64,000 nt of DNA from Bacillus sp. 103mf (GTDB lineage: Bacteria; Bacillota; Bacilli; Bacillales; Bacillaceae_G): positions 533,177-597,176 of the forward strand of contig NZ_FPAF01000002.1 of the NCBI RefSeq assembly GCF_900116295.1, written 5' to 3'. Under the pieces are notes generated by a model. The model ran no database searches, was not told where the DNA came from, and saw nothing but the letters and a program-made list of their open reading frames with translations. The translations under genes were made by a program, and so were the position numbers. Positions 10,090-64,000 of this stretch are shown here, in pieces (positions within the stretch are counted from its first letter, which is position 1; the number at the start of each line of letters is the position of its first letter).

Positions 10090-11844
10090 TTAGTCTTTTT
10101 TACCTTTCGCTTCCACACCTTGTGTTTCCAACTTATTCAGTAATTCATGATACCTTTGCATTTCTTGCTCACTATTATCCCAGGTTTCTCCGTAAATATG
10201 ATTAATTTCCTTCCCTACAAATTCTAATATAAAAGTGCTATCATCACTTTTCACCGATAAGTATGTATTTGTTCCTTCTTCATAATTTCTATCAAGATGT
10301 GAATTTTTTAATTTCTCTACACTTGGTTGTCCTGCCTTTTCCATAACAATTGGTACATACTGATCTGCTACAATTTGGCGAAGCGAATTCTCGCTAAAGT
10401 CACTTATTTTTAATGAATGGAATATGAGTGTAACCATAGGCACATTTAATTTCGTTTGATCTATTTTAAGTACGTTATGTGCAGACTCAGTAATACTCTT
10501 TTTCTCTTCTAGGCTTATATTTGGCATCGGATTTTTATCCTCTTTATGATAAAGGTTAAATACTTGCACAGCACGGAAAACGAGAGTAAGAGACAGCGTA
10601 ATGATTAAATAAATTTGCCATCTGTTATACCGCGGAGATTCAATATTGGAATACGATTGAATTTCCTTATGCTCTTTCGATGATAACTGCGGTTGTGTGG
10701 CTGCAGCTACTTCTTCAGTTGGCTGTTTCTCAAACACAGCTCCAGTGCTCCAAAAACTTGCTAATTGTGATTCAACTTCTTCTTGTGATAATTTCGGCGT
10801 TGAAACTACCGCAGGTTCTACTTTATCAAGTGTACGTGCCATTTTAGAAATTTCTTGCTTTCTTGTAAATTGATTTTTACGTAGATTTTCTTTCGCATCA
10901 AATGATGTTCCTAAACCAACTTCTTTATAAATTTTCTTTTTAATTCTAGAAGAAATAAAATACATAACAAGAATTGCAATATAAACACTCCCTGCATACC
11001 AACCAGTTGCATATACAGGCAAAATGAGCCAACCTAACAAACTTAACAAGCATAAACAATAAAATATTTTTGGATTCTTGGAACGTACAAACCTAAATAA
11101 CGAACAAAACTTCACAAAAGCTTGACCTACAACATGTGAAAAGCCTGCGGTAAACGCACAAAACTTATTTTTTGTCCCAATCATACTCTTATAAAGCTCA
11201 TATACTCCTTTATTATTTGGGTCTAGCCGCATCGCGACTTCCGCTAACATCCTTGCTTTTTTAAAATTCCCCTTATGTTTTGCTATATTTGCAAATAAAA
11301 CGAGATTGAACGTATTTTCTGGATTTAACTCTAAGGCACGCTTTTCGGCTTTTAATGCCTCCTCTTTTCGTTTAGGGAAGGATGCATAAAGAACATACGC
11401 GTACCTTCCTACATATATTTCATTTTCAGGATCCAACTCCATCGCTTTCTCGAAATAAACAAGTGAATCCTTAACGCTTTCACGACATCTAAAAACTTCG
11501 CCCATATAGAAGTAATACTGACCATCTTCAGGATAATTTTTTATACCGATTTCCGCTAGTTCTTCTATTCTTTCAAGATTTTGTTGATCACTGAAAATAT
11601 CTAATCCCACTGAAAGAACTTGCTCATTTAAATGATCGAGTTTAAGCGCCTCCTCCAAGTACTTATTTGCATTATCTTTGTCATCAAACCCATAAAAATA
11701 AACATAACTTAAACAAAGGTATCCAGAAGCATCTTCTGGATCTTCCTCTATAAGTATTTCAGCCTCTTCCATTGCCCGTTCAGCATCGCCAATCTTCACC
11801 AAATGCTGAGTTCTTCTAAGGTTATCCTCCATCACTTGACTCAT
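10090..11844 (-). CDS. TPR-repeat membrane protein (copy 1)
   Basis: 584 residues. The N-terminal ~215 residues are tetratricopeptide-like helical repeats (for example YFYMGEVFRCRESVKDSLVYFEKAMELDPENE), a protein-binding scaffold. A hydrophobic hairpin at about 255-300 and a third membrane segment near 410-428 (IYLIITLSLTLVF) follow, with a C-terminal soluble domain. It starts 15 bases after the AAA ATPase gene, so the two form an operon and probably a complex. A paralogue lies at 14110-15900. No enzymatic motif is seen. The function is unknown, but an ATPase with a membrane-anchored adaptor is the most economical reading. Confidence 0.8.
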   Translation of the reverse strand: MSQVMEDNLRRTQHLVKIGDAERAMEEAEILIEEDPEDASGYLCLSYVYFYGFDDKDNANKYLEEALKLDHLNEQVLSVGLDIFSDQQNLERIEELAEIGIKNYPEDGQYYFYMGEVFRCRESVKDSLVYFEKAMELDPENEIYVGRYAYVLYASFPKRKEEALKAEKRALELNPENTFNLVLFANIAKHKGNFKKARMLAEVAMRLDPNNKGVYELYKSMIGTKNKFCAFTAGFSHVVGQAFVKFCSLFRFVRSKNPKIFYCLCLLSLLGWLILPVYATGWYAGSVYIAILVMYFISSRIKKKIYKEVGLGTSFDAKENLRKNQFTRKQEISKMARTLDKVEPAVVSTPKLSQEEVESQLASFWSTGAVFEKQPTEEVAAATQPQLSSKEHKEIQSYSNIESPRYNRWQIYLIITLSLTLVFRAVQVFNLYHKEDKNPMPNISLEEKKSITESAHNVLKIDQTKLNVPMVTLIFHSLKISDFSENSLRQIVADQYVPIVMEKAGQPSVEKLKNSHLDRNYEEGTNTYLSVKSDDSTFILEFVGKEINHIYGETWDNSEQEMQRYHELLNKLETQGVEAKGKKD

Positions 11845-14075: not shown

Positions 14076-14110
14076 AAATAAGCCAGATGCTTTTAGCATC
14101 TGGCTTATTT
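14076..14110 (-). terminator. Terminator of the second TPR gene
   Basis: Perfect 15-base stem AAATAAGCCAGATGC / GCATCTGGCTTATTT with loop TTTTA, touching the stop codon. Confidence 0.85.
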
Positions 14111-15900
14111 TACTTTTGCTGCATACTTTGCACTATAAAGTTATGAAGTAATTCATTATATGTTTTTATTTCTTGCTCACTATTATCCCAATTTTCGCCG
14201 TAAATACGATTAATTTTTCCCTCTAACATTTCTATGATAAAAGTACTATCATCACTTTTCATTAATAAGTATGCCTTTGTCCCTTCTTTATATACTCTAG
14301 CAAGATGTTCAGATCTTAATTTCTGTATACTTGGTTGTCCTACCTTTTCCATCATAACAGGCACATAATTATCCGTTACAAATTGCCGAAGCGAGTTCTC
14401 ACTAAAGTCACTTGTTTCTAATGAACATAATGCTGACGAAATCTTACCAATTAGGTCCAGTTCTTCTTCTTTCGGTATTTTATCCTTAGATATAATGAAA
14501 CTCTTCCTCTGTTCTTCGTTAATATTCGGCTCCGCATTTTTATTCTTTTTATGATAAGAGGTATAACTCTTCTTCTGTTCTTCGCCAATATTCGGCTCCA
14601 TATTTTTATCCTCTTTATGATAAGGGTTATATACATTCCCAACACGCAAAACGAGAGTAAGAGACAGTATAATTAACAAACAAATATACCACTTGTTGTA
14701 TCGTGGGTATTCAATATTTGAATACGATTGAATTTCCTTATGTTCTTCCGATGATAACTGCGGCTGCATAGCTACTTCTTCAGTTGGTTGTTTTTCAGAC
14801 ATAGCTTCTTTACTTGTTAGCTGTGACTCAATTTCTTCTGGTGATAACTCCTTTGTTGCAATTGTCGTAGGTTCTACTTTCTCAACTGTATGTGCCATTT
14901 TAGACGTTTCTTGCTCTTTTGTAATTTGATTTCTGCGTAGATTATCTTTCGCATCAAACGATGTTCCTAAACCAACTTCTTTGTAGATCTTCTGTTGGAT
15001 GTTAGAAGAGATAAAATACATCACAAGAAATACAATATAAACGCTACCTGCATACCAACCTATTAAATATATAGGCAGAATCCCCCAACCAAATGAACTT
15101 AAAAAGTATAAAAAATAATATATGTTTTTATTCTTGAAATATACAAACGTAAATAACGAGCAGAATTTTGAGATAGGTAGACCTAAAACATGTGCAACCC
15201 TTGCGGTGAAATCACAAAACTTATTTTTTGTCCCAACCGTCTTCTTATAAATCGTATATGCGTCTTTATTATTTGGATCTAGCCGCACCGCGACTTCCGC
15301 TAACATCCTTGCTTTTTTAAAATTCCCCTTATACGTCGCTGCAACTGCGAACAAAACAAGATTAGTCGTATTTTCTGGATCTAGATCCAAAGCACGCTGT
15401 TCTGCCTGTAATGCCTCCTCTTGCCGTTTAGGGAAAGAGGTAAAAAGAATATACGCATAATTTCCTACATAAATTTCATTTTCAGGATCGAGCTCCATCG
15501 CTTTCTCGAAATACACGAGTGAATTCTTAACGGGTTCAAAACATCTAACAGCTTCACCCATATAGAAATAACACTTTCCATTTTCAGGGTAATTTTTCAT
15601 TCCAATCTCTGCGAGTTCTCTTACTCTCTTATAATTATTTTGACCATAGAAAATCTCTAATCCTACTGAGAGCACTTGCTCATTTAAATAATCCAGTTTG
15701 AGCGCCTCTTCTAAATACTTACTTGCATTATCATTATCGCCAAATCCATAAAAATAGACATAACTTAAACAAAGGTACCCTGAAGCGTCTTCTGGGTCTT
15801 CCTTTATAAGCATTTCGGCTTCTTTCATTGCCCGATCAGCATCGCCAGCCTTCAGCAAATACTGAATTCTTCTAAGATTATCTTCCATCACCTGACTCAT
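14110..15900 (-). CDS. TPR-repeat membrane protein (copy 2)
   Basis: 596 residues, closely parallel to the protein at 10090-11844: same N-terminus (MSQVMEDNLRR), same TPR region, hydrophobic hairpin and C-terminal membrane segment. The C-terminal linker is longer and contains a short internal duplication (NMEPNIGEEQKKSYTSYHKK / KNAEPNINEEQRKSF). Its ATPase partner gene is missing; only a stub remains directly upstream, so this copy must work with the other ATPase, alone, or not at all. The frame is intact, which suggests it is still selected or that the loss is recent. Confidence 0.8.
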   Translation of the reverse strand: MSQVMEDNLRRIQYLLKAGDADRAMKEAEMLIKEDPEDASGYLCLSYVYFYGFGDNDNASKYLEEALKLDYLNEQVLSVGLEIFYGQNNYKRVRELAEIGMKNYPENGKCYFYMGEAVRCFEPVKNSLVYFEKAMELDPENEIYVGNYAYILFTSFPKRQEEALQAEQRALDLDPENTTNLVLFAVAATYKGNFKKARMLAEVAVRLDPNNKDAYTIYKKTVGTKNKFCDFTARVAHVLGLPISKFCSLFTFVYFKNKNIYYFLYFLSSFGWGILPIYLIGWYAGSVYIVFLVMYFISSNIQQKIYKEVGLGTSFDAKDNLRRNQITKEQETSKMAHTVEKVEPTTIATKELSPEEIESQLTSKEAMSEKQPTEEVAMQPQLSSEEHKEIQSYSNIEYPRYNKWYICLLIILSLTLVLRVGNVYNPYHKEDKNMEPNIGEEQKKSYTSYHKKNKNAEPNINEEQRKSFIISKDKIPKEEELDLIGKISSALCSLETSDFSENSLRQFVTDNYVPVMMEKVGQPSIQKLRSEHLARVYKEGTKAYLLMKSDDSTFIIEMLEGKINRIYGENWDNSEQEIKTYNELLHNFIVQSMQQK

Positions 15901-21992: not shown

Positions 21993-22991
21993 ATGAAACT
22001 TAGCAAATTACAAAAAGGAGATTTAATTGGAATTTATTCTCCTTCATCACCAGCAACTTATACAGCACCGAAAAGATTTTATCGAGCCAAAAAATTTTTA
22101 GAGGACAAAGGTTTTTATATAATAGAAGGAAATTTAACTGGAAAACACGATAACTACCGGTCTGGAAATATTAAAGAACGGGCCGAAGAATTCAATGAGT
22201 TAATAAGAAATCCGAACATCAAATGTATCATGTCAACCATTGGTGGGATGAATTCTAATTCAATATTGCCTTATATTGATTATGACGCATTTATAAAAGA
22301 CCCGAAAATCATGATAGGTTATTCTGATGTTACTGCAATATTACTTGGGATATACGCCAAAACTGGAATAACTACATTTTATGGACCTGCATTAATCCCT
22401 TCATTTGGTGAATTTGAACCATTTGTCAACTTTACATACGAATATTTTAGTGAAATGCTAGAAGAGAAACAGAAGCTCCCATATACTATTAAAAAGCCGC
22501 CTTGTTGGACGGATGAGTTTATCAATTGGGAAGAAAAAACGAAGGAAAAACAACGTATAAAAAATGATTGGATCTGTGTAAATGCAGGAAAGACAACAGG
22601 AAGGGTAATTGGAGGAAATTTAGACACTTTAACTGGCATTTGGGGTAGCGAATACATGCCAGAAATAAAAGATGGAGATATCCTTTTTATCGAAGATACA
22701 ACAAAAGATGCTGCTACTATTGAAAGAAGTTTTTCATTACTAAAACTCAATGGAGTATTTAATAAAATTTCTGGTTTAATCCTTGGAAAGCATGAGCAAT
22801 TTAACGATAGTGGTACAAATAAAAAGCCTTATGAGATTCTATTAGAAGTTTTAGATGGCATTAACATACCGTTTATTGCAGATTTTGATTGCTGCCACAC
22901 CCACCCGATGTTAACCATTCCAATTGGTATGAAAATAGAGATGGATGCAACAAATAAAACAGTACGAATTCTTGAAGATTGGATACGTTAA
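21993..22991 (+). CDS. S66-family peptidase, MccF/LD-carboxypeptidase-like
   Basis: 332 residues. The nucleophile is S111 in IGYSDVTAIL, the acid is E234 in DILFIEDTTKDA, and the likely catalytic histidine is H302 in CCHTHPMLTIPIG. This Ser-Glu-His arrangement defines S66. The family includes peptidoglycan LD-carboxypeptidases and MccF-type immunity peptidases that cleave microcin C-like nucleotide peptides. Lack of a signal peptide and the GLILGKHEQFND region fit the cytosolic MccF branch better. The start has a GGGAGCG site. A very long terminator follows. Confidence 0.9.
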   Translation: MKLSKLQKGDLIGIYSPSSPATYTAPKRFYRAKKFLEDKGFYIIEGNLTGKHDNYRSGNIKERAEEFNELIRNPNIKCIMSTIGGMNSNSILPYIDYDAFIKDPKIMIGYSDVTAILLGIYAKTGITTFYGPALIPSFGEFEPFVNFTYEYFSEMLEEKQKLPYTIKKPPCWTDEFINWEEKTKEKQRIKNDWICVNAGKTTGRVIGGNLDTLTGIWGSEYMPEIKDGDILFIEDTTKDAATIERSFSLLKLNGVFNKISGLILGKHEQFNDSGTNKKPYEILLEVLDGINIPFIADFDCCHTHPMLTIPIGMKIEMDATNKTVRILEDWIR

Positions 22992-22997
22992 ATCTAT

Positions 22998-23051
22998 TAA
23001 AAGGAAAAAGAAGACAATCATCTATAGATGATTGTCTTCTTTTTCCTTTTG
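22998..23051. terminator. Very stable bidirectional terminator
   Basis: 24-base perfect stem (AAAAGGAAAAAGAAGACAAT... ) with loop TATA and flanking T-run. Confidence 0.9.
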
Positions 23052-23103
23052 TATATCAATAAAGATTGGACTTAAAAACTAGTAAACACCATTACAATAA
23101 AGA

Positions 23104-23457
23104 TTATACAAAACTTAAACAAACTAATATCAATGGAATAATCAATGCAAATAAAAGAAAAATCCCTCGTTTTTTTCTCTTTTTTGAAATGGCATCATCT
23201 GTTTTTTTCTCATATGTCCCACTTACATATAATGCGATTACCAAGAATAGAAAACCTAGTAATATTGGATACATCATTTTCCACACCATAGGTAGATAGT
23301 CCTTACTCATATCAAGACTTGGATCATCCCAAAATAATGCAAGTATTACTGCATAGAAACAAGACAATGTAATTCCAATACTATGTATAACAAATATTAT
23401 GATTGAAAATATCTTTATAAAAATATCTTTCAAAGATTCTCTAATCACTTTTTCCAC
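23104..23457 (-). CDS. Hypothetical three-segment membrane protein
   Basis: 117 residues from the GTG at 23457, chosen because GGAGGAGAAAGTT lies immediately upstream. An earlier ATG at 23487 would put the ribosome site inside the gene. Three hydrophobic segments are seen: IFSIIIFVIHSIGITLSCFY, MMYPILLGFLFLVIALYV and GIFLLFALIIPLILVCLSF. The last two are separated by a charged loop (SGTYEKKTDDAISKKRKKR). No family recognised. Confidence 0.75.
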   Translation of the reverse strand: MEKVIRESLKDIFIKIFSIIIFVIHSIGITLSCFYAVILALFWDDPSLDMSKDYLPMVWKMMYPILLGFLFLVIALYVSGTYEKKTDDAISKKRKKRGIFLLFALIIPLILVCLSFV

Positions 23458-23588
23458 AACTTTCTCCTCCAAATAATATTTTTTCATCCTATTCTAAAAA
23501 GAATAATTTAATTTGAAGAATTTAGATAACGATTAATTTTCCATTCATATACTGTGCATGTGCACGCTACCACATGTAGTAAAAAATA

Positions 23589-23948
23589 TTAACACTTGCC
23601 ATCAAACTTAGGATTTGGGCCGTATTTATTATCGTCTTCTTGACTATTCTGACAAAAGAATATAAGGAGAACAATACGGCCAATGATAGGAATAAAGCTT
23701 AGCAGTTGTAACCATCCTGTTTTTCCAGTATCATGTAGTCTGCGAGCCCTAACAGCAAGCATTGGCAATGTCATTGCGATCACATACATCCCAGCAATTG
23801 ACAAAAATGTTTTTGACACTACTTCTCCAAGGAATGCAAGTACACAGAATACTATTACATGAATAAGGAAAAACATCCAATATTCTTTACGACGAGCCCT
23901 CCCTCGAAATCCTACATAGTTCTTAAGTACTTTTAAATACCATTGCAC
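23589..23948 (-). CDS. DUF805 membrane protein (copy 2)
   Basis: 119 residues from the GTG at 23948 (VQWYLKVLKNYVGFRGRARR-KEYW), with AAAGGAGAG upstream. Aligning the start with the copy at 18213 supports this choice over the upstream ATG. The RRLHDTGKTGWLQLL signature and the hydrophilic end NSQEDDNKYGPNPK are conserved. The two copies sit 5 kb apart in opposite orientation. The function is unknown. Confidence 0.88.
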   Translation of the reverse strand: MQWYLKVLKNYVGFRGRARRKEYWMFFLIHVIVFCVLAFLGEVVSKTFLSIAGMYVIAMTLPMLAVRARRLHDTGKTGWLQLLSFIPIIGRIVLLIFFCQNSQEDDNKYGPNPKFDGKC

Positions 23949-24216
23949 GCAAGATCTCTCCTTTCTTATTTTAATAACTATAGTAAAATAGTAAAAAATG
24001 GATTGCAATTCAAAATATAACATTTCCATTTCATACTGTCTAGATAATATAAATGAAAAGCATTTGATTAAAAACTATTTCTGTATAATCGCTTTTCAAT
24101 AGACACTTTATTAACGAAAAAAACAGATGGAATTGAAACTCTTAACACACTATAATTAGGCGAAGCCATTTCTAATAGAATAAAAACCTTCATTATTACA
24201 GAAAGAAGTGATTACA

Positions 24217-24468
24217 TTGATTAAATTTGTCCAATTTATATTTGGTAAACCTTGCAAAAAAGGTAACACGTTCCAAACTAAATTTTCACGCTTTGTTTAT
24301 TGGAATGCTATTGTGCTCTACTTTTTTGCGGTGATATTTTTGGGAGTATGTTCACTTTTTAATACAGTATTTCTTCCATCCCTAATAGGATCTTTGTTTT
24401 TTCCGTTGATATTTAGATTGGTTTATTATATGAATCTAAAAATGAATGGGCTCGAAGAAAAAGATTAG
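24217..24468 (+). CDS. Small membrane protein
   Basis: 83 residues from the TTG at 24217, which sits eight bases after the AGAAG of AGAAGTGAT. A GTG at 24208 overlaps the ribosome site. Two hydrophobic segments (IVLYFFAVIFLGVCSLF and SLIGSLFFPLIFRLVYYM) follow a basic N-terminus (GKPCKKGNTFQTKFSR). No family recognised. Confidence 0.6.
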   Translation: MIKFVQFIFGKPCKKGNTFQTKFSRFVYWNAIVLYFFAVIFLGVCSLFNTVFLPSLIGSLFFPLIFRLVYYMNLKMNGLEEKD

Positions 24469-24497
24469 ATATAAAAGGGACTACTACAGATAAGATT

Positions 24498-24640
24498 ATA
24501 TATAAATCCATTTTAATTTTTCTACATACAAGTCACCGCTATGCAGAACATAACATGACCGCTTCTATGCACGGCCAGATCCTCTCGTCTTCCCTAAAAG
24601 GAAAGGGATTTTTATGTCGTTTTTTAACTTGTATATATTA
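24498..24640. repeat. R1 family copy d
   Basis: About 143 bp: TATATAAATCCATTTTAATT ... CACGGCCAGATCCTCTCGTC ... CTTGTATATATTA. Shorter than copies a and c because the central block is missing. Confidence 0.75.
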
Positions 24641-24650
24641 CAAGGAAAAT

Positions 24651-24701
24651 TAATAAAAAAGAAACAATCTCCTGTTATAAGCGATTGTTTCTTTTTTATT
24701 A
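24651..24701. terminator. Terminator of the PapR-like gene
   Basis: TAATAAAAAAGAAACAATC / GATTGTTTCTTTTTTATTA, overlapping the stop codon on the minus strand. Confidence 0.85.
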
Positions 24702-24839
24702 ATACTCAAATGGCAAGATAGACATTAAATCGCCTTCTTCAGTGTCCTCTTTAGGATTCATTGCAACTTCGTTACGTTCAAAAGACATACACGTTAGCAT
24801 CGCTAATGCTACTAAACTCCCCACAAAAACTTTTTGCAT
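24699..24839 (-). CDS. PapR-like signalling-peptide precursor (orphan)
   Basis: A 46-residue frame too short for usual gene finders: MQKVFVGSLVALAMLTCMSF, an acidic middle, and the end GDLMSILPFEY. PapR, the peptide that activates PlcR, has the same plan: about 48 residues, a KKLLIGSLLTLAMA-like signal segment, acidic linker, and a C-terminal pheromone such as ...LPFEF. The ATG follows GGGGGGAATAGT. A perfect PlcR box lies 50 bases upstream. No plcR or other RNPP-type receptor gene is adjacent, unlike plcR-papR. It could be a second PapR sensed by PlcR or a paralogue, or an antagonist. I have not verified secretion or activity. Confidence 0.8.
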   Translation of the reverse strand: MQKVFVGSLVALAMLTCMSFERNEVAMNPKEDTEEGDLMSILPFEY

Positions 24840-24859
24840 ACTATTCCCCCCACATTTTT

Positions 24860-24907
24860 AATATAGCACGAAGTAATATTTGTATCATATGCAATATTGC
24901 ATATGAT
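24860..24907 (-). promoter_or_regulatory. PlcR box and -10 element upstream of the PapR-like gene
   Basis: TATGCAATATTGCATA at 24888-24903 fits the PlcR consensus TATGNAWWWWTNCATA at every position, and the symmetry extends to a 24-base perfect palindrome (24884-24907). On the minus strand a TATATT -10 hexamer lies at 24865-24860, between the box and the start codon. Confidence 0.85.
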
Positions 24908-24997
24908 TTCGTATTTTCAGATAAAAACAATTGTGTTACAATAAATTTTCCATCAAACCGTCTTAGTGGTTAGTACTCACTAGCCCCTGAGAAAAAC

Positions 24998-25027
24998 AGC
25001 CCATTGTCTAAACAAATGGGCTTTTTC
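24998..25027 (+). terminator. Stand-alone + strand terminator
   Basis: AGCCCATT GTCTAAACA AATGGGCT then TTTTTC. No + strand gene ends nearby. It may end a short transcript starting near 24930-24960, or be a relic. Confidence 0.6.
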
Positions 25028-25112
25028 ATATGCAGCCTAGAAAGATAATGGTAGTTTTTCAACAAACAAATGAAAATCATCTTGCATCGAAAAGTTCATA
25101 AAAAACGCTATC

Positions 25113-25153
25113 CTTTTTATACATTTCTACAAAAAGAATAGCGCTTTTTTCAT
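25113..25153. terminator. Terminator after MFS gene
   Basis: AAAAAACGCTATCCTTTTT / AAAAAGAATAGCGCTTTTTT. Confidence 0.85.
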
Positions 25154-25163
25154 AAATTAAAAA

Positions 25164-26294
25164 TTATTTTAGTGACTTTTTTACCAACAAAATAAAAATG
25201 AACAGACTAATAAATCCAGATACAGCACAAACAATAAATAGCATTTGATATCCCATGAGCTGTGAAACAAATCCTAGAAGAATAGACCCCAAACCAATCC
25301 CTAAATCAAAAGCAGTAAAAAATGTAGCGTTTGCTACACCTCTTTTCTCTGGTGGAGCTAATCGTATAGTTACTATTTGAAGAGCAGGTTGCGCTGCTCC
25401 AAATCCAATTCCATACAAAATAGCTGTAATAACTAGTCCAACAAGCCCTTTTGTCATTGCTAGGACTAATAGTGCGACTATCAGTGTACAAAGTGCAGGA
25501 ACAATAATGACCCCTTCTCCATGTTTATCGGATATCTTCCCTGCAAGTGGTCTAATTACTGTAAGTGTGACAGCATAAACTAAGAAAAAAGTACCAACAT
25601 TAACTTGAATTTTTGCCGCAAACAGTGGTAAAAATGTTGTAATGCCACCAAAAGTAAGGGATAGAAAAAATGTAACAATAGCGATTGGTAAAACGGTTTT
25701 TTCAAAAAATGATATTGGTTTTTTTGCTGCACTTTGAACTGCTGGAATTTTTGTACCAAATGCGAGTATGAATGAAATAAGTGCTAATGCTGTGCATAGA
25801 AGAAATAGATAATGAAATGAAAATGATTTTGCTACCCAAAGACCTAATATTGGTCCTAAAGCCATGCCTAAAGTCATTGCCAGTCCATACCATCCCATGC
25901 CTTCTCCGCGACGAGATGGTGGAATCACATCAGTCACAGCCGTTCCGATCGAAGTTGTAGCAATTGCCCAGCTAATTCCATGAAGGATACGTAATACCAC
26001 TAAAAATATAACGCCTGTTACCCAATCGTAAAAATACATTGTAATTGCAAAAAATAGTAGTCCGCTTATTATAAATACGCGCCTGCCATATCGATCCATT
26101 AATCCGCCAACAATAGGACGTAAAATGACTGCCGATATTGTAAACACTCCAATAATAAATCCAACTTGAGATTCACTCCCACCTAATTGTTTAATAAACA
26201 TCGGTAGTGTTGGCATGAGTAAATAAAAACCACTAAATAGTAATAATGCTGTAATTGTCAGCATTATATAGTTCTTTGTCCATAATCGTTCCAT
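25164..26294 (-). CDS. MFS drug/solute exporter
   Basis: 376 residues with about twelve hydrophobic segments. The loop 2-3 signature reads GGLMDRYGRRV and there is a motif-C-like stretch (GLAMTLGMALGPILGLW), indicating an antiporter of the DHA1 drug:H+ group. I start at the ATG at 26294 (MERLWTKNYIML), since the upstream 15 codons have no ribosome site and are hydrophilic. Substrate is unknown. It lies next to the azoreductase gene, but a terminator separates them. Confidence 0.88.
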   Translation of the reverse strand: MERLWTKNYIMLTITALLLFSGFYLLMPTLPMFIKQLGGSESQVGFIIGVFTISAVILRPIVGGLMDRYGRRVFIISGLLFFAITMYFYDWVTGVIFLVVLRILHGISWAIATTSIGTAVTDVIPPSRRGEGMGWYGLAMTLGMALGPILGLWVAKSFSFHYLFLLCTALALISFILAFGTKIPAVQSAAKKPISFFEKTVLPIAIVTFFLSLTFGGITTFLPLFAAKIQVNVGTFFLVYAVTLTVIRPLAGKISDKHGEGVIIVPALCTLIVALLVLAMTKGLVGLVITAILYGIGFGAAQPALQIVTIRLAPPEKRGVANATFFTAFDLGIGLGSILLGFVSQLMGYQMLFIVCAVSGFISLFIFILLVKKSLK

Positions 26295-26347
26295 TATAAT
26301 GTAATCCTGCTTTCTATCGTTTATGTTCTTACCACCCAAAAGTAGAA

Positions 26348-26390
26348 TAAAAAAGCAGTACCACCGCTATAAAAGTGTTGGTACTGCCAT
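26348..26390 (-). terminator. Terminator after azoreductase gene
   Basis: Minus strand GGCAGTACCA / TGGTACTGC followed by TTTTTT. Confidence 0.85.
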
Positions 26391-26414
26391 ATTGAGTGAC
26401 AAGGGTTTTGTTAA

Positions 26415-27041
26415 TTAGAACGTACTTGCTACTTTAACAGCCGTTTCAAGCCCTGTAGCAATAATTTCTTCTGCTTTATCAGGGAATTGGCTGTGGCCTT
26501 CAATCACTACTTTCTCCATATCTTTTACACCGAAGAAGTTCATCATACTTGCTACATATTTAACAGCCATTTCCATTTCAGCTTTTGTTCCTTTAGAATA
26601 TACACCGCCACTTGCGTTTAATAGTGCAATTTTCTTATCCCCGATAAGACCTACCGGACCTTCTGGCGTATATTTAAATGTTTTGCCCGCGCGGTTTAAG
26701 TAATCAATATATGTGTGTAGTACAGCTGGGATTGTTAAGTTCCATAACGGGAAACCAAATACAACTTTATCAGCTGCAAGGAATTGATCTAAATATTTAT
26801 CAGCCACAGCCACAGCTTTTGCTTCTTCTGCTGTTAAATCAAGTCCTCTACTAACCTTAAATGTACCGTTAATCATATCTACTCCTACATATGGCAATTC
26901 TTCATTGTATAAATCAAGCTCTACCACTGTATCGTTTGGATGTGATTCTTTATAGCTTGCTAAAAAAGCCTCATATAATTTCACACTAACCGCCTGATCT
27001 GCTGGACGATTGTTTGCTTTTACAAATAAAACTGTTGTCAT
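26415..27041 (-). CDS. azoR: FMN-dependent NADH-azoreductase (quinone reductase)
   Basis: 208 residues, the standard AzoR size. The flavodoxin-like fold is indicated by VLFVKANNRPADQAVSVKLY at the N-terminus, the FPLWNLTIPAVLHTYIDYL loop and LLNASGGVYS. AzoR enzymes reduce azo dyes and quinones by two electrons with NADH and protect against thiol-reactive quinones. GGAGGAAAAG precedes the ATG. The promoter upstream lies between two MarR-type palindromes, and a marR gene with identical palindromes is 1.4 kb away, so repression by that MarR protein and release by quinones or electrophiles is the likely control. Confidence 0.95.
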   Translation of the reverse strand: MTTVLFVKANNRPADQAVSVKLYEAFLASYKESHPNDTVVELDLYNEELPYVGVDMINGTFKVSRGLDLTAEEAKAVAVADKYLDQFLAADKVVFGFPLWNLTIPAVLHTYIDYLNRAGKTFKYTPEGPVGLIGDKKIALLNASGGVYSKGTKAEMEMAVKYVASMMNFFGVKDMEKVVIEGHSQFPDKAEEIIATGLETAVKVASTF

Positions 27042-27128
27042 TCTCTTTTCCTCCTGTTACTCACTCTTACGTTGTTCTATATTTACACATTAAAAATGGG
27101 TATCCCATTTCTTTTATAATAAAAACAA

Positions 27129-27151
27129 CATAGTCAACCAAATTGACTATG
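27129..27151. promoter_or_regulatory. MarR-type operator A1
   Basis: Perfect palindrome CATAGTCAA-5-TTGACTATG, overlapping the region just after the azoR -10 element. Confidence 0.8.
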
Positions 27152-27157
27152 TTGTGC

Positions 27158-27186
27158 ATAGTACAATAAAATTCAAATAAAGTCAA
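27158..27186 (-). promoter_or_regulatory. azoR promoter embedded in operators
   Basis: On the minus strand TTGACT (27186-27181), 17-base spacer, TACTAT (27163-27158). The -35 hexamer is part of operator A2, so bound repressor would block RNA polymerase. Confidence 0.75.
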
Positions 27187-27203
27187 CTTAATTGACTTTA
27201 TTT
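27175..27203. promoter_or_regulatory. MarR-type operator A2
   Basis: Perfect palindrome AAATAAAGTCAA-5-TTGACTTTATTT, followed by AAGGAGG and a stub ATGATGTAA where the marR gene would start in the ancestral layout. The DNA to 27390 shows only broken frames. Confidence 0.8.
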
Positions 27204-27390
27204 AAGGAGGTTTTATAAATGATGTAACGAGTTGTTCCATTGCCATATTCTCTAATACTTGCTCCATTGTTTCTTGTGCTTGGACTAAAACAATTTGTAT
27301 ATTTGCTCTTATAGGACGGCTTTTCATGGAAATGAAACAACTTTTCCTCTTCTACAACATCCACCGCTCAGTACACGTCTAATAAAGTAT

Positions 27391-27975
27391 CTACACTGTT
27401 TTTTTAAAACTATACTCCATTTCTCCGGCTAGTGCTTCAGGAGTATCACCAGTTTCTCTGAAATCATGTGTATAAATTTGTTCAAACGGCCCAAAATTTA
27501 CTTGCTTATAAAATTCAAAACAAGGAAATCCATCATGTGTACCTTGAATATCGACAGTACCATCTTTTTTGACATGTACTGTTAATAGGTAGTCAACGGG
27601 AGGTGCATATACATTTAATGGGTTGCTAGCACTTGCACCCATTTGAAACTTGACGTCATCAGACCCCCATACAATATCAGTACACAAAATACCTTCTGTA
27701 CTCGCTTTTCCTGTTCTTTTATTAACGGAACCATCTGAAGTTGTGACTCTTTCTGTTGTTATGCCAGTATTCGCATATGTGAAAATTTCTTTTTTGTAAA
27801 AATCTACAACTACTTCTTGTTCCACTCTGGAACGCATAGCGTTTACAGCATAAGGTGTAAATTCACGTGAATCACCTTCGAATTGAATTACGTTTCCTGT
27901 TTGAATATCCTTCCTAGGTTCAGTCCAAGACATTGGAATAAATACACTTGCTCTAATTTTAACGATATTAGTCAT
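27391..27975 (-). CDS. DUF3238 family protein
   Basis: 194 residues from the ATG at 27975 (MTNIVKIRASVFIPMSWTEP), with GAGGTG upstream. A longer frame to 28068 would run through the duplicated region without a ribosome site. The pattern IRASVFIPMSW, FEGDSREFTPYAVNAMRSRVE and FYKQVNFGPFEQIYTHDFRE matches DUF3238, known mainly from Bacillus and of unknown function. A C-terminal fragment of a second copy lies at 28189-28335. The gene may be read from the leftward promoter at operator B, which would place it under the same MarR control. Confidence 0.8.
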   Translation of the reverse strand: MTNIVKIRASVFIPMSWTEPRKDIQTGNVIQFEGDSREFTPYAVNAMRSRVEQEVVVDFYKKEIFTYANTGITTERVTTSDGSVNKRTGKASTEGILCTDIVWGSDDVKFQMGASASNPLNVYAPPVDYLLTVHVKKDGTVDIQGTHDGFPCFEFYKQVNFGPFEQIYTHDFRETGDTPEALAGEMEYSFKKTV

Positions 27976-28130
27976 GAGACACACCTCTGTAATTCTAATT
28001 TTATTTTGGGTAATACATAACATTGAACCACCCCGCAAAACAGGTGGCAATTTCTTTCGCATAATCAATTGCTGTTCCTTTACTATTTGCTGCTTCTTGT
28101 TTAAATAGCGATACTTTTTTGATTCATATT

Positions 28131-28183
28131 TATCCCGCTATTCTTAGGCAGTAAGACCCCCACTGATGGAAGTTTCACTTTAT
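28131..28183. repeat. Internally deleted bcr1-type element
   Basis: TTTATCCCGCTATTCTTAGG, then CAGTAAGACCCCCACTGATG, then GAAGTTTCACTTTAT: both bcr1 ends joined with most of the middle missing, TTTAT at each end. Confidence 0.7.
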
Positions 28184-28188
28184 ATCTA

Positions 28189-28335
28189 TATTGTCGTTTT
28201 AAAACTGTATTCCATTTCTCCAGCTAGCGCTTCTGGAGTGTCACCAGTTTCTCTGAAATCATGTGTATATATGAATTCAAATGGACCAAAATCTGTTTGT
28301 TTATAAAATTCATAGAAAGGGAACCCATCATAATT
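28189..28335 (-). pseudogene. C-terminal fragment of a second DUF3238 gene
   Basis: The minus strand encodes YDGFPFYEFYKQTDFGPFEF then IYTHDFRETGDTPEALAGEM and EYSFKTTI, then TAG. It is almost identical to the last 48 residues of the DUF3238 protein next door. The N-terminal part is gone, and a short bcr1 element sits just after the stop. Confidence 0.88.
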
Positions 28336-28378
28336 TATTCATTTTTATTTCGGTGAATCCTATTTCTTTCATCATCAC

Positions 28379-28405
28379 AATATAGTCAACTTGATTGACT
28401 ATATT
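28379..28405. promoter_or_regulatory. MarR-type operator B1
   Basis: Perfect palindrome AATATAGTCAA-5-TTGACTATATT. A leftward promoter (TTGACT, 17 bases, TACTAT) lies between B1 and B2 as in the azoR region. Confidence 0.8.
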
Positions 28406-28427
28406 GTGTATAGTACAATGGACTTCA

Positions 28428-28454
28428 AATAAAGTCAACTTAATTGACTTTATT
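28428..28454. promoter_or_regulatory. MarR-type operator B2
   Basis: AATAAAGTCAA-5-TTGACTTTATT, identical in core to A2 and directly followed by the marR ribosome site AAGGAGG. Confidence 0.8.
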
Positions 28455-28470
28455 CAAGGAGGTTTTAAGT

Positions 28471-28944
28471 ATGAATCATCAAGTATTTAGTAAATTGGAT
28501 CTTACATCACTTTTGTCATTATCCTTTAGTACTTTGATTGATGAACTAAATGACAGAATGAGTGAATTAGGGTTTGGAGATATTAGACCTGCACATGGTT
28601 TTATGTTTAAACGTATCACCCCTAATGGAGCGACAGGTATAGAACTAGCTGAATACTTAGGAATTACAAAGCAAGCTGTGAGTAAAATGGTGGATCATCT
28701 TGAGAAAAGTGGTTATGTAATGCGTCAAACTCATCCCACTGATAAGAGAGGAAAAATTATTGTTTTGACCGAACGAGGTTGGTTAGCGGTGAAAACAAAA
28801 GATGAGATACTAACTGAGATTGAAGGGCGCTGGATTGAAAAGATCGGTGCTGAACGAATGCAAATGCTCAAAGAAGATTTAACAAAATTAGTTTATGAAG
28901 CAAATGAAGGGAAATTATCATCGAGGGTAAAACCTGTCTGGTAA
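28471..28944 (+). CDS. MarR-family transcriptional regulator
   Basis: 157 residues from the ATG at 28471, ten bases past AAGGAGG. A winged helix-turn-helix is clear: TGIELAEYLGITKQAVSKMVDHLEKSGYVMRQTHPTDKRGKIIVLT in pieces (recognition helix TKQAVSKMVDHL, wing DKRGKII). Such repressors bind as dimers to palindromes and are released by phenolics or oxidants. It probably represses itself, azoR and the DUF3238 gene through the TAGTCAA-N5-TTGACTA sites. The nearest known logic is MhqR/YusO-type control of azoreductases, though the operator sequence differs from MhqR's as I recall it. Confidence 0.92.
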   Translation: MNHQVFSKLDLTSLLSLSFSTLIDELNDRMSELGFGDIRPAHGFMFKRITPNGATGIELAEYLGITKQAVSKMVDHLEKSGYVMRQTHPTDKRGKIIVLTERGWLAVKTKDEILTEIEGRWIEKIGAERMQMLKEDLTKLVYEANEGKLSSRVKPVW

Positions 28945-40404: not shown

Positions 40405-41823
40405 TTAATTTAAATTAAAAATACGATTTTTTATAGAATCGATTTCATTTGCAGTCAACATTTGAGAAATATAAATGACAGGTGCCCCTGTATCTGATAA
40501 TTGACAATTACTAATAATAAAATCATATTTAATATTATAATTTGGTATCCTATCTATATTTACATTTTCCCCTAAGCTTTGTTTTAACTTCCTATAAATA
40601 AGATTTTTTTCAACGGTTGTCCCAGAAAATACAAGTACAATGTTTATTTCGTTACAAATTGAGTTAAGAATCGCTGTTGCATGAGAGGCAATATATTTTA
40701 TTTCATCTTTCGTAAATTTTTTCTCATTATATGTTTCATTCCAATTAGAAATTAAGGAGAGATTTTCCTTATAATTTCGCAATAATACACTATCTAAAGA
40801 ATTTATTGGATCAAAAACATGACGAATTGAAAAATGAAGTTCTCTTAAAATACACACCATATAAAAATACGGAATTACTTCAGCTTTCAATTTTCCCTTC
40901 AATTCATTCGGTAATTGATTGTATATTAAAAGGGTAGTAATAAGATTAATGAATTTTTTATAAACCTCCTGATCACATTCACTTACATATTCAAGCATTG
41001 CCTTTCCCTGTGAACTTGTACTTATTAATCCGAAAAATAAAAATAAATGCAGTGCATCTTTTTCGTATTTTGGAAATTTGATCTTATAATAATTCTCAAT
41101 TTCTATAATCATTTCATTAAGACAAGTTGCTTGCTTACGGCTGTATATAGGCTTGAATTTTATTTCTTTCGTTACACAATGTTTATTATAAAATCGATTT
41201 ATAAAAACAAAAACAATACTGCGTAACAATAAGATATCCATGTGAACTTCGTTACGATAGAGAATAGATAAAAGTTTTTTTCTTAACTCAATAGGTAATA
41301 CAGATTGATCTGAAAATTGTTGTGTAAAGTAAAAGAAACAAATATAGTAATATCTTATATTCATTTCATCTCCTTCTAGTTGAAGATTTCTGAATTTAAT
41401 ATTTAACCTACTTTCATTTAAAATTCTATTATAATCTTTTAAATGGTTTCTCAAAGTTAACTTATTCATATATAAAATTTGTGACCATTTTTCTAATGTG
41501 TAATACTTATTATGAAATATTTCTAACATAACTTTATAAAGTACACTTTCTGTCAAATAAGAATGAATCACAGGTAATACAGACTCTTCCACCGGTTTAT
41601 TTAAAGTGTATCCTCTCGTTTTAACACTAATAATTTCCCAATTCCCTGGCAATTTCTTTCTTAATTGAGAAATATCATTCATGATTGTTCGTGTCGAACA
41701 CTGTAGCTGATCTGCAAAATTTTGAGAAGATACTAATTTTGGTTCACGATTTAAAGCCTCCAGTATAAAAATTTGTCGTTTTATTGCTTTATCATCTATT
41801 AAACTATAAATAAAATTACGCAT
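40405..41823 (-). CDS. Mga/AtxA-like transcriptional regulator
   Basis: 472 residues from the ATG at 41823, with GGAAGGTAAC upstream. Longer frames run into an R1 repeat. The N-terminal winged-helix regions (RQIFILEALNREPKLVSSQN-FADQLQCSTRTIMNDISQL and a second HTH near residue 90-145, WSQILYMNKLTLRNHLKDY) are followed by PRD-like helical domains and a C-terminal EIIB-like fold (VLVFSGTTVEKNL). AtxA and AcpA of B. anthracis share this size and order, and activity there responds to phosphorylation of PRD histidines and CO2. The target genes here are unknown. The Cys/Asn-rich low-GC coding is like its neighbours. Confidence 0.85.
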   Translation of the reverse strand: MRNFIYSLIDDKAIKRQIFILEALNREPKLVSSQNFADQLQCSTRTIMNDISQLRKKLPGNWEIISVKTRGYTLNKPVEESVLPVIHSYLTESVLYKVMLEIFHNKYYTLEKWSQILYMNKLTLRNHLKDYNRILNESRLNIKFRNLQLEGDEMNIRYYYICFFYFTQQFSDQSVLPIELRKKLLSILYRNEVHMDILLLRSIVFVFINRFYNKHCVTKEIKFKPIYSRKQATCLNEMIIEIENYYKIKFPKYEKDALHLFLFFGLISTSSQGKAMLEYVSECDQEVYKKFINLITTLLIYNQLPNELKGKLKAEVIPYFYMVCILRELHFSIRHVFDPINSLDSVLLRNYKENLSLISNWNETYNEKKFTKDEIKYIASHATAILNSICNEINIVLVFSGTTVEKNLIYRKLKQSLGENVNIDRIPNYNIKYDFIISNCQLSDTGAPVIYISQMLTANEIDSIKNRIFNLN

Positions 41824-41864
41824 TAATCTGTTACCTTCCCTCAAAACTATCAAGACTTTAAAGC

Positions 41865-41983
41865 TATATAAATACAAATTGAAAAACGACGTCAAAATCC
41901 CTTTCTTTTTAGGAGAGGACGAAAGCATCTAGCCTTGCATAGCAGAGACCTATATGTCGAAAAATTAAAATGGATTTATATAA
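41865..41983. repeat. R1 family copy e (short form)
   Basis: TATATAAATACAAATTGAAA ... GGACGAAAGCATCTAGCC ... TATATGTCGAAAAATTAAAA-TGGATTTATATA. Inverted termini. Confidence 0.8.
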
Positions 41984-56497: not shown

Positions 56498-57487
56498 TTA
56501 CTTTTCAAGAAAATATTCTTTCATATAATCTTCAACACTATTACTTTTTTCCATATCTTCTGATGACATCCTACCTTCCCACTTCGTACCTTCTTTGTAG
56601 GTCAAGTTAATATTGAATTGTTTGTTATGTAGTTCTTCTTTCACCCAAGTGGCTACTTTGGTTAAATCCTCGATTAAATTTGGGTTGTTTTGATATTGCA
56701 ACATACCATCATTAAAATCTAAGGTTACATTATACTCTGGACAGTCCCCATTTTTTGTATATGAACAAGTGATTTCTTTGAATATAAATCTTTCATTTTG
56801 AATTTCTTTTATTTTGTCATGAACTTGTGTTTGAATTAAATACGTCCAGTAATCTCTTGATGCGTTTTTCATTGCTAGTAGCAGATCCTCTTTCGTTGGA
56901 TTTTTTTGTATTTTTGTATAATAAAATATAGTATGCTCACCTGTATTATCTTTTAGATTAAGCTCTGTTATTTTTTTATTATTCCTTTGAATGAGTTGTA
57001 ATAAAGCAAAGAAGCGATCTAATTCTGTCGATTCAAATTGACTATAATCGATTTTATTATTCATTTTTAAAGTTAGTAGCAAATTATTGTTTAGGTATTC
57101 TTCAATATGATCAGTTATATATTGAATAGTATTTTCCTCTTCAAATTCCGAGAATCCTAACTTTTCGATTTCTTTCAGCGTTGGCTTGAATTTCTTATAT
57201 GCTTCATATGCATTTTTACCATCTTTGTATTCATCACCTATTATTGTAGAATAAAATACACCATCTACTTCCACTCGGAATTGAATGTTTTTATTATCTT
57301 TTACTTGAACAGTATGATATACATGTCCCATATTCCCTGAATGTATTTCTTCCCAATCTGTTACAATAACATCAATCCCATATTTTTCTTTAAAGTATGT
57401 TTTTACCTCTTTTTCATTTTCATAGTTACAACCACTCAAAAATAAGAAACATACCACTAACAACATTACATTTTTCATTCTTTTCAT
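56498..57487 (-). CDS. Lipoprotein of unknown family
   Basis: 329 residues. The lipobox FLSGC gives a lipid-modified Cys at 20. The mature protein is charged, with no membrane segment: TYFKEKYGIDVIVTDWEEIH, and a region around 230-260 with two Cys (CSYTKNGDC). AGGGGTTAT precedes the ATG. It is anchored on the outer membrane face and resembles lysine-rich lipoproteins common in this group. I do not recognise a domain. A full bcr1-type element lies directly after the stop. Confidence 0.78.
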   Translation of the reverse strand: MKRMKNVMLLVVCFLFLSGCNYENEKEVKTYFKEKYGIDVIVTDWEEIHSGNMGHVYHTVQVKDNKNIQFRVEVDGVFYSTIIGDEYKDGKNAYEAYKKFKPTLKEIEKLGFSEFEEENTIQYITDHIEEYLNNNLLLTLKMNNKIDYSQFESTELDRFFALLQLIQRNNKKITELNLKDNTGEHTIFYYTKIQKNPTKEDLLLAMKNASRDYWTYLIQTQVHDKIKEIQNERFIFKEITCSYTKNGDCPEYNVTLDFNDGMLQYQNNPNLIEDLTKVATWVKEELHNKQFNINLTYKEGTKWEGRMSSEDMEKSNSVEDYMKEYFLEK

Positions 57488-62980: not shown

Positions 62981-64000
62981 TTAATGACTAATATTAGCAC
63001 TTGGATATAATGTTGTTCCTCCAATTGAAACTTTCATTTCATTTGTTAATGGAACATTTTGTTCATTGATAATTGTTCTCCACCATTCCCATGCAAGACC
63101 TGTACATTCTCTTGCTACGACTTTTACATTTTTTGAATTCGCTGGAAGTGGTATAACTGTATTGAAATGAGCAGTTCTGTCTCTGCCGTTTCCTTCCCAA
63201 GTTTTATGAGTTAGTACTTCTTTTCCATTTTGATCATATGAGAATTCATCCCAAGATACATCAAATTGAGCAACATATGCACCAGTATGATCAAGCGTCA
63301 TTTTCGCACTAGAATATTCTGTAGTTGTAGTCTCAATATAATCTGTATTGTTATGAACTGCAGCAGTTGCGTTATCTTTTAAGAAAGAGCTAGTATATGA
63401 AATTGGGTATGCTGGATTTTTAGAACTTAATTCTGCATTATCTTTAATGATATTGCGGATTTCATCAAAATCTTTTGTAACAACCTTGTTATGCTCTTTT
63501 GCATCTCCGCCTAATACTACAGCAGTAAAGGTACTGTCTTCAAAAATATCTTTGTACTGTCCACTCGCTTCAACGCCTTGACCCTTAATTAAAGCTTTAA
63601 AAGCAGTTTGTACATCTTTGCTCTTAGATGATGTTTCTAATTTCACATAAACTGTTCTACCATAAGCTACATTTGACACCATAACAGGCGGAGCCGTATT
63701 ACTTACCCCTTTACGAGTTAACTCATCAAACGTAACACTATTATCAAAAAGATCTGATGGATTGTTAGGTAGTTCTGCACTTACGGTATAAAAGATTTGC
63801 TTATATGCCGCAACCATCACTTTTTTCTCTCCATTTGCAATCGCATTAAAATCAATGTTCAGTGAATTATCAAGATATTTAGCGTTAACATTAAGAGCAC
63901 TTGCTATTTGAGATTTACTATACACCATAGATTCTGTATACTGCATTCTTGCAGGTAACGTATGTGTTTTTGAATACTTTTCATTCCAAGTAGATACTAA
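62981..64000 (-). CDS. clo: Cholesterol-dependent cytolysin (cereolysin O/anthrolysin O type), N-terminus cut
   Basis: The frame is open to the right edge and holds the C-terminal 339 residues of a ~510-residue toxin. The undecapeptide [11 protein letters not shown] (63109-63077) is the membrane-recognition loop of this family, and [11 protein letters not shown] carries the Thr-Leu cholesterol-binding pair. Domains 3 and 4 are therefore complete. The toxin is secreted, binds cholesterol, assembles into large rings and perforates host membranes. PlcR controls it in B. cereus; its promoter is outside the window. The gene is convergent with nothing and ends in a strong hairpin. Confidence 0.96.

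Follow-up and report, generated by a model that had tools for sequence, protein, structure and literature searches.

A PapR-like frame and its transcription signals

The whole stretch of DNA analysed here, from a soil Bacillus and 64 kb in length (the window), contains a minus-strand ATG frame of 46 codons whose product ends in GDLMSILPFEY (Table 1). In the hydropathy profile of this product, a lysine at position 3 is followed by mostly hydrophobic residues as far as residue 20 or so, a putative Sec-type signal. The C-terminus resembles that of PapR, the peptide by which such Bacillus sense their own crowding and whose signal normally switches a PlcR box on. A preliminary description of this DNA had reported the 46-residue frame and its C-terminus, both of which are present; the start it gave is incorrect, as the N-terminus reads MQKVFVGS.

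The frequency of PapR-type ends was assessed by counting frames of 30-100 codons that terminate in (L/I/V/M/F)P(F/Y)E(F/Y/H) followed by a stop, both in the window and in first-order random 64-kb sequences (n=200). One such frame occurs in the window, compared to none in the 200 random sequences. The strict form of the motif is found in 1 of 793 small window frames, which is the 46-codon frame. It is likewise found in 1 of 3545 small frames from two Bacillus arachidis plasmids (counted over overlapping stretches), which is the plasmid relative described below. With a looser form of the motif, each of these two sets of frames yields one further match, and both look unrelated.

Upstream of the frame, TATGCAATATTGCATA is the sole exact match in the window to the PlcR-box pattern TATGNANNNNTNCATA, and it also conforms to the stricter consensus ATGhAwwwwTdCAT derived from mutagenesis by Gohar et al. 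2008 (PMC2464732). Exact boxes are expected by chance at a mean of 0.20 per shuffle, with at least one in 20 of 100 shuffles. Near-boxes (1 mismatch) are not clearly enriched in the window (9 found, 4.86 expected), since 8 of 100 shuffles reach the count of 9. According to PMC2464732, boxes of the PlcR regulon lie 35-700 bp upstream of the gene, a range that includes the 48 nt separating the exact box from the ATG. The same source reports lacZ fusions in B. cereus in which 16 of 30 box-bearing promoters were not under PlcR control; hence a PlcR box alone is weak evidence, and no proof, of PlcR regulation.

As the preliminary description had stated, the box sits within a perfect 24-base palindrome, and the frame has its own -10 element, ribosome-binding site and terminator. 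Together with the T-rich stretch that follows it, the palindrome also matches a terminator-like pattern on the plus strand. The other perfect 24-bp palindrome of the window, GACAATCATCTATAGATGATTGTC at 23013-23036, is located directly downstream of an LD-carboxypeptidase gene. The sigma-70 promoter scan carries no weight alone, since it returned 3 sites in the window against 4.8 in shuffles, i.e. no enrichment. The hairpin that begins at the stop codon folds with -23 kcal/mol, compared to -3.6 in 200 shuffles (z -11); the terminator-pattern scan did not pick it up.

Table 1. Features of the PapR-like gene (window coordinates; strand given where assigned).
Feature	Position	Strand	Remarks
Hairpin and T run, intrinsic-terminator type	24649..24703	-	21-bp perfect arms, 13-nt loop, begins at stop codon
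PapR-like precursor, 46 aa	24699..24839	-	K3, hydrophobic at about residues 4-20, acidic middle, SILPFEY end
Predicted pheromone end, SILPFEY codons and stop	24699..24722	-	Core LPFEY is a group I PapR core
Ribosome-binding site GGGGGG	24846..24851	-	6 nt 5' of ATG
Extended -10 TGC-TATATT	24860..24868	-	Promoter scan; B. arachidis plasmid copy has TGC-CATATT
-35-like ATGATA	24883..24888	-	At 17 nt; shares last base of PlcR box
Perfect palindrome, 24 bp, around PlcR box	24884..24907		Inverted-repeat scan; one of two in window
Exact PlcR box TATGCAATATTGCATA	24888..24903		Pattern scan; 48 nt before ATG

The preliminary description had noted the absence of a receptor gene nearby, and none was detected in the 64 kb. 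No PlcR-like frame was found in the window by tblastn (best E 2.2 with a PlcR-like protein, 5.4 with PlcR residues 4-281), and Pfam revealed no RNPP family member in 26 of the 45 window ORFs of at least 120 aa. TPR-repeat matches occur in three window proteins (10090, 14110 and 38248), all of which are without a helix-turn-helix. Two similar-looking TPR proteins, 10090-11844 and 14110-15900 (-), are encoded on either side of an AAA ATPase gene. An Mga-type regulator (domains Mga, HTH_11 and HTH_Mga) is encoded at 40405-41928 (-).

A cassette of MarR, DUF3238, azoreductase and MFS genes occupies positions 25164-28944 and looks mobile. All or some of it also occurs, with protein identities reaching 93%, in Mesobacillus, Brevibacillus, Paenibacillus, Priestia and Clostridium. 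Membership of the peptide in this cassette was considered and discarded, as the peptide is found at 0 of 15 transporter loci. At 8 of these the transporter is joined by MarR and azoreductase frames (one azoreductase match being partial), and at 5 by DUF3238 as well. The best tblastn E for the peptide across the 15 loci, none of which is titled as a B. cereus-group species, was 0.56. A phage search with the peptide gave nothing at E <= 10, and no match was obtained in PHROGs or among solved structures. In viral contigs, 53 stretches fitted a pattern and none was confirmed by protein profile; none was confirmed by DNA pattern.

The encoded peptide and the PapR family

The Pfam PapR model PF05968 comprises 48 positions and has a curated cut-off of 27 bits. 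Both the window frame (19.3 bits, E 0.0015) and its plasmid relative (16.8 bits, E 0.0084) fall under this cut-off, while their alignments run end to end, with protein residues 1-46 placed on model positions 1-48. The PapR plan ascribed to the frame in the preliminary description is thus supported by the alignment but not by the score. The family search suggested there as a check did yield a match, yet a sub-threshold one. We term the frame PapR-like rather than PapR because of this score of 19.3 against 27 bits. An NCBIfam search with the window copy gave no match. Among 397 genomes from the order of Priestia taiwanensis, seven had a PF05968 match at E <= 0.01, all partial (lying within model positions 5-34) and none above the cut-off; a profile made from the two copies gave two partial matches in the same genomes, at positions 1-31 and 1-34.

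The C-terminal cores of the PapR groups are LPFE(F/Y) (group I), VP(F/Y)E(F/Y), MPFEF and LPFEH (PMC5007282). A test for the core (L/V/M)P(F/Y)E(F/Y/H) identifies LPFEY at the end of the window frame, a sequence reported as an active PapR core. The preliminary description had raised the possibility of a switch in specificity to an LPFEY pherotype. The notion of a new pherotype was discarded, as LPFE(F/Y) is already the group I core and B. cereus ATCC 14579 has KDLPFEY as its PapR7. Five published PapR7 peptides (ADLPFEF, SDMPFEF, NEVPFEF, SDLPFEH and KDLPFEY) possess Asp or Glu at position 2, an acidic position that is absent from SILPFEY, which has Ile. Judged from the sequence, the departure from known PapR is Ser-Ile in place of x-Asp/Glu, the core itself being ordinary group I. 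The two extra N-terminal residues of the heptapeptide are held to add specificity, and Pro4 and Glu6 of PapR7 are described as important for PlcR activation. Both Pro4 and Glu6 are retained in SILPFEY, and Tyr at position 7 is a natural group I residue.

We propose, with roughly even confidence for and against, that the locus is a stand-alone, PlcR-induced gene for a PapR-type pheromone, receptor-less and feeding back on PlcR. PlcR together with the main PapR would act on the box to switch on a monocistronic unit, and the 46-residue precursor would be exported via its N-terminal signal. Cutting near the C-terminus would release a peptide ending LPFEY that, following import by the oligopeptide permease, would add to PlcR activation, so that positive feedback would gain a second arm with no linkage to plcR. 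In this scheme we infer the presence of PlcR in the organism, as well as PlcR binding, export, cutting, import and PlcR activation.

A plasmid-borne relative and alternative readings

A tblastn search of 72,556 plasmid records returned a single match, on NZ_CP127373.1 from Bacillus arachidis YX15. It corresponds to a 46-aa frame annotated as hypothetical and is 67% identical to the window copy (E 2e-13). The plasmid copy used as query against the plasmids retrieved its own record only, and window DNA 22000-28000 gave no plasmid match. The copies are equal in frame length, 84% identical in nucleotide sequence and have DLMSILP(F/Y)EY in common, the plasmid copy ending PYEY. The box, unlike the -10 region, lies outside the homology between them, and no PlcR box within 1 mismatch is located directly upstream of the plasmid copy. 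The latter lies immediately downstream of a gene for a RICIN/Toxin_10 domain protein (L016:6624-7796). An exact PlcR box occurs ~554 bp before this RICIN/Toxin_10 gene, with a 41-aa frame at a shorter distance from it on the opposite side. A neighbouring receptor is absent here also.

NZ_CP127373 encodes a PlcR-like protein (L028:4287-5165; RNPP_C E 1.9e-30, PlcR E 1.6e-28), beside whose gene no PapR-like frame was seen. This gene adjoins AbrB-type genes and IS6 elements. The PlcR-like protein lends some appeal to a rather unlikely alternative, in which the peptide serves as ligand for a PlcR paralogue putatively encoded elsewhere (of the PlcRa/PlcRb/PlcRc type or a plasmid-borne PlcR-like protein), such that PlcR would control a signal for another regulator. 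The PYEY end of the plasmid copy resembles the proposed PapRa7 CSIPYEY, and three PlcR paralogues are described in B. cereus ATCC 14579 (PMC3519770), with a precedent for cross-talk in the statement of an editorial that PapR can activate PlcRa (PMC7376259). However, the window copy carries the canonical group I core LPFEY, and the plasmid copy and the PlcR-like gene are ~77 kb apart along the shorter arc of the plasmid.

The dN/dS ratio between the copies is 0.48-0.67 (three methods, 46 codons, no significance test), and the last 30 of 138 nt hold 1 of the 22 nucleotide differences (P 0.023, for a stretch picked after viewing the alignment). Such dN/dS values could reflect a decaying papR duplicate that has kept its promoter and has no function, as could the sub-threshold Pfam score, the Ile at heptapeptide position 2, the lack of a neighbouring plcR and the plasmid copy without a box directly before it. 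We consider decay improbable given an open frame of equal length and a conserved C-terminus in two copies that have diverged to 84% nucleotide identity, the box, -10, ribosome site and terminator retained by the window copy, and a window in which no plcR remnant was detected.

PlcR boxes appear to be in use in B. arachidis. Exact boxes number 11 on NZ_CP127373 and 2 on NZ_CP127374, with 0 matches to the reversed pattern. Two of the NZ_CP127373 boxes precede Spp-like peptides in which residues 12-13 are GG. On NZ_CP127374, a 16-mer identical to the window box is followed by five tandem Spp-like 26-aa peptides and then a cytolysin gene. The 11 versus 0 exact boxes and the Spp-like peptides behind boxes suggest by sequence that the boxes look live in this likely related organism. 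The gap between box and -10 is 22 nt at the window frame, 32-33 nt for Spp-like frames and 19 nt for a C39 peptidase gene; the remaining boxes in this comparison have no -10 candidate or different distances. A further exact box on NZ_CP127373 (173557-173572, L045:24157-24172) ends 18 bases before the start of a PAS-domain histidine kinase. Positions 62981-64000 (-) of the window encode the C-terminal portion of a thiol-activated cytolysin, with DNA 96% identical to the NZ_CP127374 gene, and window gene 56498-57487 (-), which belongs to no Pfam family, has an 81% DNA-identical relative on NZ_CP127373. Judging by these two matches, the window probably derives from B. arachidis or a close relative of it.

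Spp of B. cereus are small, PlcR-dependent peptides, 26 aa long and bearing a GG motif; a synthetic Spp fragment is antibacterial at high concentration (PMC1913518). By analogy the window product could be a secreted PlcR-regulon peptide with a non-signalling role, e.g. antibacterial. This is very unlikely for a peptide that has no double-glycine motif, is hydrophobic towards its N-terminus and ends in a core of the PapR type. Scarcely probable, finally, is a natural antagonist, which would bind PlcR but leave it inactive and thereby weaken the response: altered PapR7 peptides can inhibit PlcR (PMC6568020) and negative feedback would fit a PlcR-induced gene, but the inhibitory analogues in that source are changed at Pro4, Glu6 or Phe7, and an activator is likelier because the present peptide retains Pro4 and Glu6 and has at position 7 a Tyr that natural PapR can also carry.

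Proposed feedback on PlcR and comparison with known systems

In favour of a second pheromone that feeds back on PlcR we count the sole exact box, the end-to-end Pfam alignment, the LPFEY core with its Pro4 and Glu6, and the conserved C-terminus, in addition to the seemingly live boxes of B. arachidis and the 22-nt gap between box and -10. Counted against it are the Pfam score below the cut-off, the lack of an NCBIfam match, Ile at position 2, the plasmid copy without a box, the dN/dS of 0.48-0.67, the palindrome read as a plus-strand terminator and the 16 of 30 box promoters that are PlcR-independent.

More tentatively, the two copies may belong to a family of PapR-like pheromone genes without receptors that exists in the B. 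cereus group, partly chromosomal and under a PlcR box, partly plasmid-borne beside insecticidal-type genes. Such genes might boost or re-route the PlcR signal in portable form, and plasmids might carry the orphan signal and the orphan PlcR-like receptor as separate pieces of a split communication system.

PlcR-type signals have so far been described as receptor-peptide pairs, with the peptide sought beside the receptor. No description of a stand-alone papR-like gene was recognised in the portions of the literature searched. The sections consulted of the RRNPPA survey PMC9765709 report multiple propeptide genes for Rap only; for the PlcR subfamily, peptides were sought close to receptor genes, a design by which an unlinked signal gene would be missed. 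If the proposal is correct, the feedback loop would have to be drawn differently, to include a signal gene that belongs to the PlcR regulon but is not linked to the receptor. The gene furthermore offers a small, direct test of signal specificity, with SI versus xD preceding LPFEY.

Among known systems, PlcRa-PapRa resembles the present one in the PYEY end of the plasmid relative, as found in PapRa7 CSIPYEY, but PapRa is a 93-aa protein with an internal heptapeptide, encoded just upstream of plcRa (PMC3519770). Spp genes are comparable in that they too encode small peptides and are preceded by exact PlcR boxes; some are unlinked to other genes, and one Spp-like array, on NZ_CP127374, has the identical 16-mer. 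They differ in that their products are 26 aa long, contain a GG motif and lack a PapR core. The frame is set apart from PapR proper (PF05968) because it scores below the cut-off, has no plcR detected within the 64 kb and ends in SILPFEY, without an acidic second residue. It nonetheless shares with PapR a similar length (46 aa, the model having 48 positions), a putative N-terminal hydrophobic signal, the LPFEY core and an upstream PlcR box.
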